A stretch of DNA of 64,000 bases from Segatella copri DSM 18205 (GTDB taxonomy: Bacteria; Bacteroidota; Bacteroidia; Bacteroidales; Bacteroidaceae): positions 3,047,501 to 3,111,500 of the forward strand of contig NZ_CP102288.1 in the NCBI RefSeq assembly GCF_025151535.1. Direction: 5' to 3'. The position numbers and the translations under genes were made by a program. Below, piece by piece: positions 4,886-33,371 of the stretch (position 1 is the first letter of the stretch; each line of letters begins with the position of its first letter). The notes under the pieces were generated by a model. That model was not told where the DNA came from. It saw nothing but the letters and a program-made list of their open reading frames with translations, and did not search any database.

Positions 4886-6217
4886 TTAGGCAAAACTGAT
4901 AACGCCCTGTACTGTAGCATCATCATTATTGTCTTCTTTCGGTTCTGTATTACCGGAAGCTATATTACGGATTTCTTCCAGAGTCTGTCGGGTACGCTTA
5001 TAGGTAGGCGTGTTTTCTACCTGAAGGATGACATCCTCGTTATCCAAATCTTCCTGGCGGAACAGGAATATGTGTGGATGACGCTTATACTGTGTCGTAT
5101 TGCCATCGCTGCCATAATAGCGCTTGCGGCGGTCTTCTCTTTCAGCACGTTTCTCCTCTTCTTCAGCGAGACGGCGAGATTCTTCCTCAGTATGTTTCTT
5201 GAGGTGGCGGTTCATTCCCTCTACATCCTCGAGTCCGAAACCTGTTGCGAGAACGGTTACCTTAACGCGGCTTCCCAATTCAGGGTCAATGGCAAGACCC
5301 CATTTCAGTTCGAAGTCCTCACCGAATTTCTCCATAAAGTCGTTGACATCATTCATCTCGTCCATGGTCAAGCCAGGATTATCTTTCTTCTCGCTTGCAA
5401 ATGCGATGCTGAGCAGAATCTTCTTAGAGTTGAATACGTCATTATCGTTAAGGAGAGGTGAGTTCAAGGCATCTTCTATCGCTTTCTTTACTCTTCCTTC
5501 TCCCTCACCGTAACCTGTACTCATGATAGCCACACCGCCATCTTTCAGTACGGTCTTTACATCATTGAAGTCGAGGTTGATGAGACCATGTACGGTAATG
5601 ATTTCAGCGATACTCTTGGCAGCTACACTCAAGGTGTCGTCAGCTTTGCCGAAGGCATCGAGAACGGCAAGGTCTGGATAAATCTGGCGAAGACGTTCAT
5701 TGTTGATTACCAGTAAGGCATCTACATGCTTCGACATTTCCTCTACACCATCCAATGCCTGGTCAATCTTCTTAGGACCTTCAAAACGGAATGGGATGGT
5801 TACAATACCAACGGTAAGAATGCCTAACTCCTTACTTACTCTGGCGATGACAGGTGCTGCACCCGTACCGGTACCGCCACCCATACCCGCTGTGATGAAT
5901 GCCATTTTTGTTCCATCGTTGAGCATGTTCTTGATATCTTCAAGAGTCTCTTCGGCAGCCTGGCGTGCCTTTGCAGGTTTGTTTCCTGCACCCAGTCCTT
6001 CCTTGCCTAGCTGCAGGTGTACAGGCACAGGTGAGTCGTTAAGTGCCTGGTTGTCTGTGTTGCAGAGTACGAATGTTACATCGTGTATACCTTCGCGGTA
6101 CATGTGGTTGACGGCATTTCCACCGCCACCACCAACACCAATCACCTTGATGATGCTATTTTCTTTTTCAGGTTCCCCAAAGTCAAGAATATGAGGAGCG
6201 TTTCCATTATCTAGCAT
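4886..6217 (-). CDS. ftsZ: Cell division protein FtsZ (dcw-cluster copy)
   Basis: This tubulin-like GTPase forms the division ring. Residues 23-32 hold the nucleotide-binding KVIGVGGGG stretch. The tubulin signature GGGTGTG lies at about 113-119, and the T7 loop NLDFNDV at about 214-220 keeps both catalytic aspartates. The linker is rich in E, R and K. A conserved C-terminal peptide-like ENTPTYKR lies near 401-408 and would bind FtsA. An acidic tail of about 35 residues then follows, which is unusual because this peptide is normally terminal. It is the last gene of the dcw cluster, behind ftsA. A divergent second copy lies at 31856-33247. Confidence 0.97.
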   Translation of the reverse strand: MLDNGNAPHILDFGEPEKENSIIKVIGVGGGGGNAVNHMYREGIHDVTFVLCNTDNQALNDSPVPVHLQLGKEGLGAGNKPAKARQAAEETLEDIKNMLNDGTKMAFITAGMGGGTGTGAAPVIARVSKELGILTVGIVTIPFRFEGPKKIDQALDGVEEMSKHVDALLVINNERLRQIYPDLAVLDAFGKADDTLSVAAKSIAEIITVHGLINLDFNDVKTVLKDGGVAIMSTGYGEGEGRVKKAIEDALNSPLLNDNDVFNSKKILLSIAFASEKKDNPGLTMDEMNDVNDFMEKFGEDFELKWGLAIDPELGSRVKVTVLATGFGLEDVEGMNRHLKKHTEEESRRLAEEEEKRAEREDRRKRYYGSDGNTTQYKRHPHIFLFRQEDLDNEDVILQVENTPTYKRTRQTLEEIRNIASGNTEPKEDNNDDATVQGVISFA

Positions 6218-6306: not shown

Positions 6307-7752
6307 TTATTCTTCTTCAGAAATGGTATCTTTCACAAACTTCTTGAAACCTCTCATCATTTTATGGATGAGACTGTTTTCTTTGCGTCTCTTTTCTTCT
6401 TCTTCGGCTTCTTTTTCTGCCAGAAGTCTTGCCTCAGCTTCTTCCAGTTCTTTTTGCTTGCGGGCAGCCTCGTCTGCAGCCGCTTTTTCTGCCGCAGTAA
6501 GAACAACGCCCTTGCCGGCAGTCTCGTTAGGGTTTCTAGGAGCCTTGTGCTGCTCGGCTGCTACTGGCTTTTCGGCAGAATTACTGAAGAGATCAGTGCC
6601 GATTTCGTCACCTGCACAGTTCATGTCTCCCTTTGCCAGGAGTCCTAATACGGTATTCATTGTACCATCGTGATTGGTAATCTTAGGATCCTTGGAGTTG
6701 ACTGTTTGAGAAACAAACTTGGCAATGCGTACTTTGTCGATGTGGGTATGTGTTTTGAAAACCTTATCGATTTCAGGCATGTTGCTGCCGCCACCTGTAA
6801 GGATGATACCACCCAACAGCTTATCTGAGAATTCTACAGGAATCTGGAACCATGCGTTTTCTACGATTTCCTCTACGCGTGCTTCTACGATTTCGATGAA
6901 CTTCTTGCTTTCAACCACTCTATCCTTGTCGATAGGGTAGTTCAGGGTCAGGTCGATATTGTTGATATCGGTATAAGCCTTGGCATACTTGAGTTTCATC
7001 TTTTCAGCATCAGGCTCTTCAATCTGAAGACAAGTTAAGTCTTTGGTCACGTTGCCGCCGCCCAATGGGATGACAGAGAGATGACGAAGTATACCTTTAT
7101 AATATACAGAAACGGTTGTCGTATCGGCACCCAAGTCAACAAGCATACAGCCTGCACGCTTTTCTGAGTCTGTCAAAACGCTGTCAGCCATAGCTAAAGG
7201 AGCCAGGTACATTTCTGCAATAGGAATGTTGGCATTTTCAAAACAGGTATTGATATTGTTATAGAAGTTCTTGCGCCAAAGTATATTCAGGAAGATGCCT
7301 TCCAGATGGTTACACTGTATTCCTACAGGGTCTATCTGGTATTGGTTGTCTATCTTGTATTCCTGAGTTGCAGCATCCAGGATTTCCTGGTCCGGATAGG
7401 TCATGTTGCGGTTGATATCCATCAGTTCATTGATCATCTCTTGTGAGATGATGGTGTTACCTGGGAGATCCTTGACAATGACGTTCTTGATACTGCGTAT
7501 AGAGCGACCGCCCACGCCTACATAGACCTGGGTGATATCCTGTTTCAGTATATTCTTCAACTTCTTGATGATGTTGGTCAAGCATTGACAGGTTTTGTCA
7601 ATGTTATAGATCACACCCTTTCTGATGCAAGAAGATGAATCTTCCTCTACGGTGGCAAGTACGGTGATGCTGCCGTCCAAATTCTTCTGACCTGCTATAC
7701 CTGTCATCTTAGATGAGCCAAGTTCGATAGCTACAATAAATTCCTTTGGCAT
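6307..7752 (-). CDS. ftsA: Cell division protein FtsA
   Basis: An actin-like ATPase that tethers FtsZ to the membrane and recruits later division proteins. The N-terminal phosphate-binding segment is EFIVAIELGSSKMTGI. The LVDLGADTTTVSVYYKG segment near 205 and LTGGGSNMPEI near 325 are the second phosphate and adenosine motifs. The protein is long (481 residues) because about 65 residues of charged, probably helical sequence (A, E, K and R rich) precede the C-terminal amphipathic helix MMRGFKKFVKDTI, the expected membrane-targeting helix. It lies between ftsQ and ftsZ, 39 bp after ftsQ. Confidence 0.96.
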   Translation of the reverse strand: MPKEFIVAIELGSSKMTGIAGQKNLDGSITVLATVEEDSSSCIRKGVIYNIDKTCQCLTNIIKKLKNILKQDITQVYVGVGGRSIRSIKNVIVKDLPGNTIISQEMINELMDINRNMTYPDQEILDAATQEYKIDNQYQIDPVGIQCNHLEGIFLNILWRKNFYNNINTCFENANIPIAEMYLAPLAMADSVLTDSEKRAGCMLVDLGADTTTVSVYYKGILRHLSVIPLGGGNVTKDLTCLQIEEPDAEKMKLKYAKAYTDINNIDLTLNYPIDKDRVVESKKFIEIVEARVEEIVENAWFQIPVEFSDKLLGGIILTGGGSNMPEIDKVFKTHTHIDKVRIAKFVSQTVNSKDPKITNHDGTMNTVLGLLAKGDMNCAGDEIGTDLFSNSAEKPVAAEQHKAPRNPNETAGKGVVLTAAEKAAADEAARKQKELEEAEARLLAEKEAEEEEKRRKENSLIHKMMRGFKKFVKDTISEEE

Positions 7753-27680: not shown

Positions 27681-29462
27681 ATGAAGCGAATCTTATTATT
27701 CATCATGGCAATCACCTTCTCGCTCGCACCTTTTGCGCAGAAGCATTCTGCCCAGAAGAAGCCGATGAGAAAGACTGCCGTAACTGCGAAAAAGAAGGCT
27801 GCTACTCCTGCCAGAAAGACGAACAGCAGAAGTCATGCGGTCAGAAAGACATACAAACCAGCTGCGCCAACCAGAGCAGAACGCAAGGCGGCAACCTATA
27901 GCAATGCCTCTATCCGAGGTTTGCAGGGACAGCGCGCTTCTATCCGGAAGAAGATCAGAGAACAGGAGCAGGCTTTGCAGAGAAATAAGGCGGATGTGAA
28001 GAAACGTCTTGAAGACCTGATGGTGCTGAACGGAGAAATAGACCAGCGTCAGAAGAAGATTGACGGTATCCAGAAGGATATTCATCATATTGACGGCAAT
28101 ATCGGCATTCTGCAGGCACAGTTGAAAACGCTTCAGCAACAGTTGCAGGACCGCAAGAACAAGTATATCCGTTCCATGCGCTATATGAGCCGTCATCATA
28201 CGGTTCAGGACAAGCTGATGTTCATCTTCAGTGCCAAGAATCTGACACAGATGTATCGCCGTCTTTCCTTCATCCGCCAGTATTCTTCCTATCAGAAGGT
28301 GCAGGGCGAGGCTGTAAAGGCTAAGCAGAAGCAGGTGAACGAGAAGCACCAGCAGTTGCAGCATGTAAAGGGACATAAGAACACCTTATTATATAAGGGT
28401 AAGCAGGAGAAGACGGCATTGGAAGGTAAGCAGACCCAGCAGCAGGAGATGGTGCAGGGACTGCAGAAACAGCAGAAGACCATTCAGGCTGTCATTGCCG
28501 ACCAGCGTCAGAAAGATGCGGCAATCAACGCTCAGATTGACCGCTTGATTGCTCAGGAAGTAGCCAAGGCTCGTGCCCGTGCTGCTGCCGAGGCTAAGAA
28601 GAAGGCCGCTGCCGCTGCTGCCGCCAAGAAACGTGCCGAGGAACTGGCTCGCAAGAAAGCTGCTGCCGAGGCTGCTGCCAGGGAGAATGCCCGTCGTATA
28701 GCCGAAGCCAAGGCGCGTGAGGCTGCTGCCGAAGCTGCCCGCAGAAAGGCGGCTGAAGAAGCAAGACTGGCTGCCGAGGCTGCAAGAAAGGCTCAGGAGG
28801 AGGCTGCTGCCCAGGCTGCTGCTCAGGCGAAGGCAAAAGCCCAGGCTAGGGCGCGTGCTGCTGCCGAGGCTGCCAAGCGTGCCGCTGCAGAACAGGCTGC
28901 CCGTGAGGCTGCTGCCGAACAGGCTGCAAGAAAGGCGGAGGCAGAAAGACAGGCTGCCGAGTTGAAGGCGAAGATGGATGCGGAACGCAGTACCCTTGAG
29001 ATTGCCGCTGCCAAGAAGGAGGCACAGGAGGCTTCTACCTTGAGTTCGGTAGACCGCATGCTGAGCGGTGGATTCGAGGCTAACCGTGGTAGATTGCCGA
29101 TGCCTATCAGCGGCAGTTACCGTGTGGTGAGTCATTTCGGTCAGTATCATGTGGAAGGCTTGAAGGGTGTAACGCTCGACAATAAGGGTATCAATATCCA
29201 GGGCAAGCCGGGTTGTGTGGCTCGCAGCATCTACGATGGTGAGGTGAGTGCCGTCTTCGGTTATGGTGGCATGTGGAATGTACTGGTCCGTCATGGTGCC
29301 TACATCTCTGTTTACTGTAATCTGAAATCGGTCAGCGTTCATAAGGGTCAGAAGGTATATACCCGTCAGGCTTTGGGTAGTGTTGGCTCTGATAACATCC
29401 TCCAGTTCCAGCTTCGCAAGGAGACTGCCAAGCTCAATCCGGAGGCTTGGCTGAGCCGATAA
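27681..29462 (+). CDS. EnvC-like murein hydrolase activator with degenerate LytM (M23) domain
   Basis: A 593-residue secreted protein. After the signal peptide comes a basic region, then a coiled coil at about 75-265 (for example KRLEDLMVLNGEIDQRQKKI). A long Ala/Glu/Lys/Arg helix of about 150 residues follows at roughly 285-435. The LytM domain lies at about 470-590. Its metal-binding residues are lost: the HxGxD position reads LDNKGIN and the HxH position reads LQFQLRK. This matches EnvC/NlpD-type activators, which stimulate cell-separation amidases and do not cleave murein themselves. No amidase gene is adjacent. Confidence 0.88.
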   Translation: MKRILLFIMAITFSLAPFAQKHSAQKKPMRKTAVTAKKKAATPARKTNSRSHAVRKTYKPAAPTRAERKAATYSNASIRGLQGQRASIRKKIREQEQALQRNKADVKKRLEDLMVLNGEIDQRQKKIDGIQKDIHHIDGNIGILQAQLKTLQQQLQDRKNKYIRSMRYMSRHHTVQDKLMFIFSAKNLTQMYRRLSFIRQYSSYQKVQGEAVKAKQKQVNEKHQQLQHVKGHKNTLLYKGKQEKTALEGKQTQQQEMVQGLQKQQKTIQAVIADQRQKDAAINAQIDRLIAQEVAKARARAAAEAKKKAAAAAAAKKRAEELARKKAAAEAAARENARRIAEAKAREAAAEAARRKAAEEARLAAEAARKAQEEAAAQAAAQAKAKAQARARAAAEAAKRAAAEQAAREAAAEQAARKAEAERQAAELKAKMDAERSTLEIAAAKKEAQEASTLSSVDRMLSGGFEANRGRLPMPISGSYRVVSHFGQYHVEGLKGVTLDNKGINIQGKPGCVARSIYDGEVSAVFGYGGMWNVLVRHGAYISVYCNLKSVSVHKGQKVYTRQALGSVGSDNILQFQLRKETAKLNPEAWLSR

Positions 29463-29997: not shown

Positions 29998-30770
29998 TTA
30001 CAGCCCTTCTACACCATGATCCTTAAAGAAACCTACCATGGCTGTGGTCATATAGCCACCCATGTTCATCTTCTTGTTCGAACGCTTGCAGTTGGCTATG
30101 TAATAATCCTTTCGCAGGAAGAAGTCCTCCAGGTCGCCAATCATATATAACCTGAGATAGCCGCTCAGCCTTCTTCTCGCTCACATCATAATTGCATTGC
30201 AGCCGGAGTTTCAGTTTGCTCCGCTGTCCTCTCAGTTCGCTGCTCACTTCTGTACCCTCCGCAGTTTCGTCAGAAGTGCAACGGTCGTGCAGGGTAAAGG
30301 TGATGTGCTCGGGCAGGTGATGCTTCTCTTTTTTACCCTCCTCCAGAAAGAAAGGCTTATAGGTAAGATACTGGTCGATGATGCGGTTCCGGTAAAGGCG
30401 CGAGGTCTTTGCAGGCAAAAGTCAGACATTTGTTGTCTAGTGCCGACCAGGTCTTGTAGTAATCTTCCCTGCCATGCATCAGTTGCTGGATATGTGCCGT
30501 TTTGCTGATGGTGAATCCCTTTACAGCCCAGCAGTTCATGATGAGATATAACTTGATGCTCGATGCGCTGCGGCATTGGTTGATGGCATTGAGGTCGATA
30601 CGGCTGACTCCCTTGTCGAAATTGTAGAAAAACCGCATCACGTTGTTGTCGAAGCGGAATTTTACCATCCAGTTCTTGTGCCGGTCTTGGTATAGCTCAC
30701 TCTTAAACAGGCATGCAAATTTCCGGTAGTAGGTTTGGTCGCCCTGCTGCTGTTGATTTACTTGTTCCAT
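29998..30770 (-). pseudogene. Frameshifted replication initiator (RepB/Rep_3-like) gene
   Basis: Three reading frames join into one protein of about 250 residues. Frame one starts at ATG 30770 (MEQVNQQQQGDQTYYRKFAC) and runs through SASSIKLYLIMNCWAVKGF and LDNKCLTFACKDL. A shift near 30410 leads to YRNRIIDQYLTYKPFF. A second shift near 30180 leads to YLRLYMIGDLEDFFLRKDYY and ends at 29998. The pattern of an initiator winged helix (SIKLYxxxxxWAVKG) followed by a second lobe resembles Rep_3-type plasmid initiators. Iteron-like repeats lie upstream at 31156-31240. The family assignment is tentative, but the frameshifts are direct. Confidence 0.55.
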
Positions 30771-31155
30771 TGTTGGTTTTCTCTTTAAATTGTTAGTGGC
30801 CTACCGATTGGGGCAAGTCTTTGTTGTTGTTTATTGAAAACCGGCATGGAATTAGAGTAAGGTAAACATGGCAAGATAAAAATTCTCAATCCGTGATGGA
30901 AGGAGTTTCAGCCTTTTCTCTTGTTATCAAACATATGTCCTTACTCTGCATCCATGCCGATAAATTTTCATCAAATTTATCAGGCATAGAATGCCCTGTA
31001 AGGATTACAGTTTGATTACTCACCTTTTGGGGCTGAATCCTACTCAATGAGCTATGTTCTAATCCTTAACCGAAAGCATTTCCCGGTGTCCTTCATCAGG
31101 AGGAGAATCACATTCTCCGCGCTTTCATGTTGCAAAAGAATTAGCTTTTGACTGT

Positions 31156-31240
31156 TACCATCAGAGCCAATAATAGATACCATCAGGGAGAATAATGCTT
31201 CTTCAGAATATGCCCGAATCACTACCAGGGAGAATCTTAA
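31156..31240. repeat. Iteron-like TACCATCAG repeats
   Basis: TACCATCAG starts at 31156 and again at 31178, exactly 22 bp apart. A related TACCAGGGAGAAT starts at 31223, and the 31178 copy continues as GGGAGAAT. Spacing of about 22 bp upstream of an initiator gene is typical of iterons, but only two to three copies are recognisable. Confidence 0.45.
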
Positions 31241-31855: not shown

Positions 31856-33247
31856 CTACTTGTAGTTTTCATCATCGTAAGTGATGATGTCCAGATCTTC
31901 TGCAATTTTCTTCAGCCCATTTTTGATTCTTCCACCTAATGTCCATGACTTTGGCTTGGCGATAGGCGTTTCAACAGGAACTTCTCTTGAATCTTCGGTT
32001 GTAGAAGGATTGTCTTCCACTAAAACCTTAGCTGGCTCTTCTCCAGACTCATTTCCTGACATTTCTTCTCGATGGACAATAGTAGCTTCCTTCTCTGTAG
32101 CATCTGGATTGATGTTATCTATAGATTCTGCTTCTTGCTTTTGCTCGGTTTTATTTGCTAGCGTCTGGAAGTTGTCTCTGATAGGATGATAGAGCTTGTC
32201 GATGATTCTCTGATAGTCTTCCTCATCCTTCAATACAGAAGAACTTTCAGGAATATCCTCAGCCAACTCATTGTTCAGACCAGTTGCCAGAATGGTGACT
32301 TTGGCATCCTCATCCAGACTGTCATCATCAGAAAGACCCCAAATCACCTTGATATCAGGGTTCAGTTCATCAAAGAAGGCATCAATTTCTCTCATCTCCC
32401 TCACAAAGATAGGGTGCTTGCTGGAAGTGTAGATATTGAAAAGGATGCGCTGGGCATTACTGATATCGCTGCCATAGAGCAGAGGAGAGTCTAACGCATT
32501 CTTGATGGCACTTTGAACCCTTCCCTCACCACTGGCTCTACCCATGGCCATGATAGCACCGCCACCGCTCTTGATGGTAGTCTCGATGTCTCGGAAGTCA
32601 AGATTGATGGTTCCCTCCACAGTGATGAGTTCCGATATACTCTTGGTGGCATCACTCAGTACCTTGTCTGCCAGTTTGAAGGCATCCTTTACGGTAATCT
32701 CGGAGTCGGCATAAACATCGCAGAGACGCTCGTTGTTGACGATAAGCAAGGCATCCACGTTCTTGCGCATTTCTTCTACACCCTGCAGAGCCTTGACAAT
32801 TTTCTTTCGCTTCTCGAAGTAGAAAGGTATGGTGATGATGCCAACGGTAAGGATGCCCATCCCTTTGGCAATACCGGCAATGACAGGTGCGGCACCCGTA
32901 CCCGTTCCACCACCCATTCCGGCAGTAACAAAAACCATCTTGGTTCCGTCGTCCAGCAGTTTCTTGATGTCTTCCTGGGTATTCTGAGCCTCACTTCTTC
33001 CCACTTCGGGATTTGCCCCTGCACCCAAACCACTCTTTCCGAGCATGATCTTGACCGGCACAGGCGACTTGGATAGTGATTGACTATCCGTATTGCAGAC
33101 GGCGAAACTCATGTTTACTATACCCTCTGCATACATATTCTTAACGGCATTGCATCCGCCACCACCCACACCAATCACCTTGATGATGTTCTTGGTAGTA
33201 TCTTCTGTCTGTCCGAAATCTATAGGAGTCCAATCTTCTTTCATCAT
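31856..33247 (-). CDS. Second FtsZ paralogue with membrane-helix-like C-terminus
   Basis: A 463-residue FtsZ-family GTPase outside the dcw cluster. The core is intact: [17 protein letters not shown] (23-39), [12 protein letters not shown] (73-84), GGGTGTG (112-118), and T7 loop NLDFRDI (215-221) with both catalytic aspartates. The core aligns well with the dcw FtsZ. The C-terminal half differs. A long acidic linker (about 340-430, rich in E, D, S and T) leads to [20 protein letters not shown] at about 434-453. This is basic and amphipathic and looks like a membrane-targeting helix. No proline-containing FtsA-binding peptide is evident. It is likely to polymerise, with a specialised or accessory role. 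The function is not known. Confidence 0.93.
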
Positions 33248-33276: not shown

Positions 33277-33371
33277 CATACAAAGAATCAGATTCCCTAT
33301 GAAAAATCAAACGCAAGCCTTGCAAAAGAAGTTTTTTTCTAGATGAGAAACGATTTTTCCCATTCTTTTTG

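Follow-up and report, generated by a model that had tools for sequence, protein, structure and literature searches.

A predicted self-anchoring second FtsZ and its conserved, predicted winged-helix partner in Segatella copri and other Bacteroidaceae

The genome of Segatella copri DSM 18205 codes for a second FtsZ (FtsZ2) that has intact GTPase motifs, lacks the anchor-binding C-terminal peptide, and ends in a predicted amphipathic helix resembling that of FtsA. The gene was analyzed within a 64,000-nucleotide stretch of contig NZ_CP102288.1 (the window), which also contains the dcw-encoded FtsZ (FtsZ1) and FtsA, and it is accompanied by a conserved protein with a predicted winged helix (the partner) and a conserved 13-bp palindrome. 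The reading that we favor, with a probability of roughly 0.7, is that FtsZ2 is a self-anchored accessory FtsZ with its own autoregulator, which would form FtsA-independent filaments at the membrane, most likely at division.

A second FtsZ with an altered C-terminus

The initial annotation recognized a second, motif-complete FtsZ besides the dcw ftsZ, and the gene withstands closer inspection (Table 1). The 463-aa open reading frame begins with ATG and has no internal stops; its product scores 328.1 bits against the NCBI equivalog profile TIGR00065 (ftsZ), above the curated cut-off of 295.2, and contains both the Tubulin (PF00091, 137.5 bits) and FtsZ_C (PF12327, 57.3 bits) domains. The GTPase signature GGGTGTG is intact in 49 of 49 FtsZ2 proteins, and the T7-loop aspartates D217 and D220 are invariant in an alignment of 47 FtsZ2 rows. 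With its GTPase motifs intact, FtsZ2 is a genuine FtsZ paralogue, and a relative with 96% identity (P0051) is annotated as 'cell division protein FtsZ [Prevotella copri]'. When the genome that contains the window (G000; 3,325,514 bp in one contig) is searched with FtsZ2, there are two matches, FtsZ1 and FtsZ2. We note that the T7 loop varies among the 49 proteins, reading KSDFRD or KSDFKD in nine and DLDFRD in three; these variants depart from NxDxxD in part of the clade, and the GTPase rate may change.

Table 1. Features of the window discussed in the text, with positions counted from its first nucleotide
Feature	Position	Strand	Basis or remark
ftsZ2, second FtsZ, 463 aa	31856..33247	-	intact ORF, TIGR00065 match, monophyletic clade
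Tubulin/FtsZ GTPase signature GGGTGTG, residues 112-118	32894..32914	-	read from sequence
T7 loop NLDFRD, residues 215-220	32588..32605	-	read from sequence
Post-core motif YQRIIDKLY, residues 345-353	32189..32215	-	FtsZ2-specific, possible interaction site
Disordered linker, residues 368-436	31940..32146	-	AlphaFold2 block means 35-48
Predicted membrane-anchoring amphipathic helix at the C-terminus, residues 437-456	31880..31939	-	AlphaFold2, moment 0.59
13-bp palindrome CGCAAGCCTTGCA, putative operator	33312..33324	.	between divergent ftsZ2 and partner
Partner, 195 aa, predicted OmpR/PhoB-like winged helix	33388..33975	+	adjacency, AlphaFold2, fold matches
dcw FtsZ (FtsZ1), retains PTYKR peptide	4886..6217	-	for comparison
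FtsA, C-terminal helix SLIHKMMRGFKKFVKDTI	6307..7752	-	for comparison, adjoins dcw ftsZ
Decayed Rep3-type replication initiator fragment	30357-30773	-	PF01051, E 1.2e-5
M23 peptidase gene	27681-29462	+	about 2.4 kb from ftsZ2

Two further motifs were compared between the paralogues. A regular expression for the post-core motif, in which Y353 is invariant in the FtsZ2 alignment, matches 26/49 FtsZ2 proteins versus 0/62 Bacteroidaceae FtsZ1, 0/14 outgroup proteins, and 0/6 copies from the tandem ftsZ pairs of genus group g14. The T3-loop pattern PExG[RK], scanned with heteropolymers in mind, is present in 28/49 FtsZ2 and 6/14 outgroup proteins, and in FtsZ1 it occurs in 0/52 proteins outside and 0/10 inside the sister clade of FtsZ2.

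A PxYxR-like C-terminal peptide is the motif through which FtsZ binds its anchors (FtsA, ZipA, or SepF). The initial annotation took the FtsA-binding peptide to be missing from FtsZ2, and the wider comparison bears this out: within the last 110 residues a PxYxR-like motif is found in 0/49 FtsZ2 proteins, and likewise in 0/77 from named loci, versus 55/62 Bacteroidaceae FtsZ1, 11/14 outgroup FtsZ, and 3/6 g14 tandem copies. In the AlphaFold2 model of FtsZ2 the core is confident, a disordered linker follows, and the tail forms a helix with a block pLDDT of only 48 to 65; seven residues lie beyond the helix in the window's protein, so it is near-terminal in this species. An FtsA-like amphipathic tail had been proposed at the outset, with disorder as the alternative, and the tail is predicted to be helical at modest confidence and amphipathic.

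Hydrophobic moments, calculated for the highest-scoring 18-residue segment of the C-terminal 34 residues, differ between the two paralogues. The scan skips 18-mers with a proline after position 3, a rule that zeroes two FtsZ1 rows and one FtsZ2 (L196) whose tail still looks amphipathic. The median is 0.58 for FtsZ2 in 48 rows and 0.62 in 77 named-locus rows, of which 76 reach at least 0.40; it is 0.20 for FtsZ1 in 13 Bacteroidaceae rows and 0.22 in 27 other rows. The membrane helices of FtsA, used as a positive control from the same data, also have a median of 0.62 (40 rows, 39 distinct), and a moment of 0.58 is reached by 1.6% of 436 other C-termini of mechanical ORFs from FtsZ2 neighborhoods. 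A HeliQuest-type score exceeds 0.68 in only 48/77 FtsZ2 tails, but also in only 19/40 of those of FtsA.

Amphipathicity is retained while the tail sequence drifts: when the last 25 residues are aligned, median identity is 0.38 for the 75 tails from named loci and 0.30 for the 47 distinct tails of the wider 48-locus set. A K-W-x-W-L-like pattern recurs, and 64/75 named-locus tails have a K, R, or S immediately before W[LIM]. Lipid binding is the best reading of this predicted helix. It could instead bind a protein, such as FtsZ1, FtsA, the partner, or a coiled coil, with FtsZ2 reaching the membrane only through others; amphipathic helices also make protein contacts, the net charge of the tail is close to neutral in many species, the shared tail pattern could reflect a specific contact, and the post-core motif is a second feature specific to FtsZ2. 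However, the wider 48-locus tails keep their high moment at that low identity, the FtsZ2 values equal those of the FtsA membrane helices, and the tail helix persists without the partner. FtsZ2 proteins that lack an orthologous partner have tail moments of 0.44 (L036), 0.45 (L018), 0.59 (L049), 0.64 (L058), and 0.74 (L047), and the helix is thus not simply a partner-binding site. We consider the protein-binding explanation unlikely.

Distribution, descent, and selection

FtsZ2 is present in 80 of the 200 sampled genus genomes and absent from the other 120, a match of at least 389 bits being required (the next match listed has 371 bits, and lower ones were taken as FtsZ1 or fragments) and FtsZ2 fragments in other genomes being left out of the count. 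Among the 86 genus genomes with a completeness of 90% or more and a contamination of 5% or less, 40 carry it (hand count). Loci from g7, g9, g12, g13, g17, g20, and g26 extend it to at least seven other genera of the family, and across 296 genomes sampled from the phylum the highest-scoring match outside the family, among the matches listed, has 318 bits.

All FtsZ2 proteins form one clade, which is supported at SH-aLRT 99 by the larger of two trees (131 rows) and at 100/99 by the smaller (64 rows, mixture model). The clade is nested in Bacteroidaceae FtsZ beside the dcw FtsZ1 of other genera (98; 100/99), whose genes adjoin FtsA, and the exact sister is less sure because long branches are present. 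The larger tree left out the near-duplicates L034 and L164, the duplicate neighborhood copies L089 to L128, fragment L176, 13 of 27 outgroup loci, and the FtsZ1 loci L174, L179, L181, and L187; loci numbered L189 and above were collected later, and the 64-row tree drew on its rows. In the 20 genomes with both proteins, FtsZ1 and FtsZ2 distances correlate (Mantel r 0.425, with 0 of 5,000 permutations as high), 12 of the 20 share one of their two nearest neighbors, and by the distances FtsZ2 has evolved 3.3 times faster than FtsZ1. This history fits mostly vertical descent with many losses and leaves room for some transfer between lineages.

Comparison of the window with G042 gives dN/dS values of 0.02 for the core, 0.38 for the linker (about residues 331 to 433), and 0.14 for the last 30 residues; the core is under purifying selection, and the tail is better kept than the linker. 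Several genomes carry broken copies, a sign of ongoing loss: the G124 ftsZ2 is internally deleted and its partner interrupted, G151 retains only an N-terminal piece adjoining the partner, and G161 has a decayed copy. The initial annotation had raised the prospect of a sporadic, pseudogene-like copy, and selection and distribution rule this out; what stands is a widespread, selected lineage, to be qualified by its absence from more than half of the sampled genus genomes and its decay in some. A related explanation treats FtsZ2 as a relic or duplicate that is dispensable, has no role of its own, and persists through drift. The patchy distribution, the decayed copies, and the faster evolution lend it some color, but dN/dS is far below 1, the GTPase signature is intact in all 49 FtsZ2 proteins compared, the partner and palindrome are conserved over deep divergence, and the clade reaches at least seven other genera. 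The relic explanation is already disfavored, and we regard it as extremely improbable.

Other FtsZ duplications were encountered in the same searches. Three loci of genus group g14 (L172, L182, and L183) have a tandem ftsZ pair that appears to be a separate duplication; these copies were considered as FtsZ2 and rejected, as they are placed with FtsZ1 in the 131-row tree, and one copy of this type in G276 has one internal stop. Genomes G048, G062, and G176 each have two full-length FtsZ matches below the FtsZ2 scores, the first copies of which group with FtsZ1, and in the phylum sample several genomes of family f17 (g74 and g79), which is of another class than the window's, have two to three FtsZ-type matches. 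Some genomes have multiple ftsZ2-partner pairs, namely, Prevotella ruminicola KHT3 (L207 and L227), G254, and G070. There is no sign of a phage origin: PHROGs gave one weak match to FtsZ2 (E 0.027) and none to the partner, and the partner has no match among 50,697 phage records.

The predicted winged-helix partner, the palindrome, and their genomic context

The partner, whose ORF can be extended to position 33343, has an AlphaFold2 model with a pLDDT of 91.9 and fold matches that suggest a winged helix of the OmpR/PhoB type, residues 55 to 194 having been compared. It adjoins FtsZ2 in 77 of 80 named loci. Among the 200 genus genomes, 73 have both genes, seven have FtsZ2 alone, two have the partner alone, and 118 have neither (Fisher p 1.3e-43); the two genes are no more than 1.2 kb apart in 74/74 paired loci, and both genomes with the partner alone have an FtsZ2 that is either truncated or carries an internal deletion. 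Partner matches of at least 183 bits were counted, leaving out a fragment in G018 (134 bits, without FtsZ2). The clear exception to pairing among the named loci is L236, where the partner has full 4-kb flanks and both FtsZ2 and the palindrome are absent. A further S. copri record (L189) carries the partner gene at 90% identity. Judged from these patterns, FtsZ2 is half of a two-gene module, and it is the adjacent partner together with the conserved palindrome that turns the 'second FtsZ' of the initial annotation into one.

The winged-helix-like domain of the partner is also found in other proteins, either alone (about 170 to 190 aa) or at the end of proteins of about 420 to 470 aa (e.g., L112:12413-13810, L114:11100-12362, and L118:2338-3597). 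In g17 and g13, a paralogue of this domain is encoded close to ftsZ2.

The palindrome was evident from a word count of 74 upstream regions versus 274 control regions, which picked out CGCAAGSCTTGCG. In 68 of 75 loci, the 300 bp preceding ftsZ2 contain a single copy of the pattern YRCAAG[S or rarely A]CTTGYR, usually 65 to 100 bp from the start codon (range 65 to 290 bp); these 75 were scored from 77 FtsZ-bearing loci, leaving out L244 (score <400) and one locus cut at its 5' end. In six of the remaining seven loci the partner comes first in order and the palindrome is 60 to 85 bp upstream of it, and in the seventh (L231) a contig edge cuts the region. The center is A instead of S at two of the 68 sites (L203 and L242) and also in G046, a genome with 0 sites under the strict, S-centered pattern.

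Presence of the palindrome largely follows that of the partner. In an earlier set of 48 loci it was found in 31; of the 17 without it, 14 lack an orthologous partner, two are partner-first with the site further upstream, and one is cut. It is thus found in 0/14 FtsZ2 loci without an orthologous partner, two of which (L046 and L054) have a paralogous partner domain 0.6 to 1 kb away, and is likewise absent from a fifteenth such locus, in G063. We found 0 sites in 200 kb of FtsZ1 loci, including 0/40 genus FtsZ1 loci, and among partner-bearing genus neighborhoods a site lies within 1.3 kb of ftsZ2 in 32/33, the exception being L115.

The palindrome is not exclusive to the module, as 171 of the 200 genomes have at least one strict match, including 93 of the 118 with neither gene. 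Strict matches number 0 to 12 per genome (0 to 6 for a reversed control pattern), averaging 3.77 where both genes are present (73 genomes) and 1.95 where both are absent (118 genomes). Of the four in the window's genome, the three besides the module's own are inside mechanical ORFs. Sites this few argue against a genome-wide nucleoid mark. Among other neighborhood ORFs, 10/386 have a site within 350 bp upstream, some of these being the next gene at the same site. The idea that the palindrome marks the wider partner family generally is not supported, since 0/10 partner paralogues carry it in the 350 bp upstream, and because of this the palindrome-partner link rests on co-occurrence; we note that G028 has strict sites upstream of one partner paralogue and two other ORFs. 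The simplest reading is that the FtsZ2-linked partner is a putative autoregulator that binds the palindrome and controls the module.

In Segatella hominis HDD12 (NZ_CP137560.1, 42269-50035; L269/L271) the ftsZ2-partner pair is carried by a circular secondary replicon of 317 kb, with ParA and RepB genes within about 1 to 6 kb. In the window, the interval separating ftsZ2 from the M23 peptidase gene contains the Rep3 fragment and weak 15-nt direct repeats (31157-31235). A match to a DnaB-type replicative helicase is located within a few kilobases of ftsZ2 in 13/121 sequences (e.g., L107, L113, L192, and L224), of which 10 are at about 55% identity or more and three are weak or partial. The M23 peptidase, presumably EnvC-like, is possibly a division-related neighbor, or its position may be chance.

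An alternative that draws on this context is a DNA-linked system of the TubZ-TubR or nucleoid occlusion kind, in which the DNA-bound partner would hook membrane-anchored FtsZ2 and move or position DNA. It would account for a tubulin-family GTPase and a winged-helix protein sharing one module, for the S. hominis pair near repB and parA, and for the decayed Rep3 initiator about 1.1 kb from ftsZ2 in the window. The module, however, shows one palindrome rather than a clear iteron array; repeat scans of three loci found no clear array beside the genes, the window having only three weak copies of its 15-nt repeat. The S. hominis RepB and ParA have matches in 0/121 sequences (the window and 120 neighborhoods, with short flanks and some overlapping), RepB has no match in the window's genome, and a general link of the module to plasmid replication is rejected on this basis. 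Strict sites are also few, and most of those in the window's genome are within ORFs. We judge the DNA-linked system very unlikely.

Proposed mechanism and relation to known FtsZ systems

In the self-anchored reading, FtsZ2 would have traded the anchor-binding peptide for an amphipathic helix of its own, similar to that of FtsA and borne by a long disordered linker, and with this helix its filaments could bind the inner membrane without FtsA. The adjacent winged-helix protein would set FtsZ2 expression, most likely by binding the single palindrome in the module's promoter region and thereby autoregulating it. Once expressed, FtsZ2 would most likely constitute an additional membrane-bound FtsZ assembly, which at division would act jointly with the FtsA-tethered FtsZ1 ring or alongside it. 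The weakest step is the division role, which we infer purely from membership in the FtsZ family. A bolder version, in which the dedicated winged-helix protein both switches on a self-anchored FtsZ and tethers its filament to DNA, coupling division or membrane remodeling to the state of the DNA, is distinctly unlikely.

Chloroplast FtsZ1 is one of a pair of paralogues. Self-anchored FtsZ as such has been reported outside Bacteroidota: Odinarchaeota FtsZ1 binds membranes directly via an N-terminal amphipathic helix (PMC12583498), Mycoplasma FtsZ has a membrane-targeting sequence at its N- or C-terminus, and in Arabidopsis the chloroplast FtsZ1 binds membranes through its C-terminus (both cited in PMC12583498). 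The Odinarchaeota resemble the FtsZ2 case in that one of two FtsZ paralogues is membrane binding and the other uses an anchor protein, but they are archaeal, the helix is N-terminal, and a winged-helix partner is not mentioned in the available extract (PMC12583498). As predicted for FtsZ2, an end of the Mycoplasma and chloroplast proteins binds the membrane directly; these are, however, unrelated lineages, whereas FtsZ2 has been added beside a full FtsA/dcw system and has its own putative regulator. Engineered FtsZ-YFP-mts proteins with a C-terminal MinD or FtsA helix form treadmilling rings on bilayers (PMC7320174); these are man-made, and FtsZ2 would be their natural counterpart, having a linker and promoter control of its own.

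The TubZ-TubR-TubY plasmid partition systems combine a tubulin-family GTPase with DNA-binding proteins, and TubY binds both membrane and DNA (PMC7762940). A TubZRC system would have a TubZ-type GTPase outside bacterial FtsZ; in contrast, FtsZ2 has FtsZ_C, sits inside the Bacteroidaceae FtsZ tree, is predicted to carry the membrane helix itself, and is associated with one palindrome rather than a clear iteron array. An extra ftsZ away from the dcw cluster has been described in a few bacteria, including Bipolaricaulota (PMC9871819), and in the extract of that report neither a membrane helix nor a partner is mentioned, with Bacteroidota included only for tree placement. The two divergent FtsZ-like families (PMC2875224) are, as far as the extract describes them, a different thing from a second ftsZ outside dcw. 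Among the best matches in the open-licence PubMed Central literature there is no description of a Prevotella or Bacteroidota FtsZ2, its partner, or the palindrome, and the regulated two-gene Bacteroidota module is apparently unreported.

FtsZ needs an anchor to act on the membrane, and reconstitution work uses FtsZ-mts chimeras to dispense with one; evolution seems to have made an FtsZ-mts-like protein beside a complete FtsA system and under its own control. The 'ftsZ' annotation in Prevotella spans two different proteins, and the partner family, presently annotated as hypothetical only, gains a hypothesis for its function. The hosts of FtsZ2 are gut bacteria, such as S. copri, and rumen bacteria, in which it would provide a natural case for a division of labor between anchor-dependent and self-anchored FtsZ.
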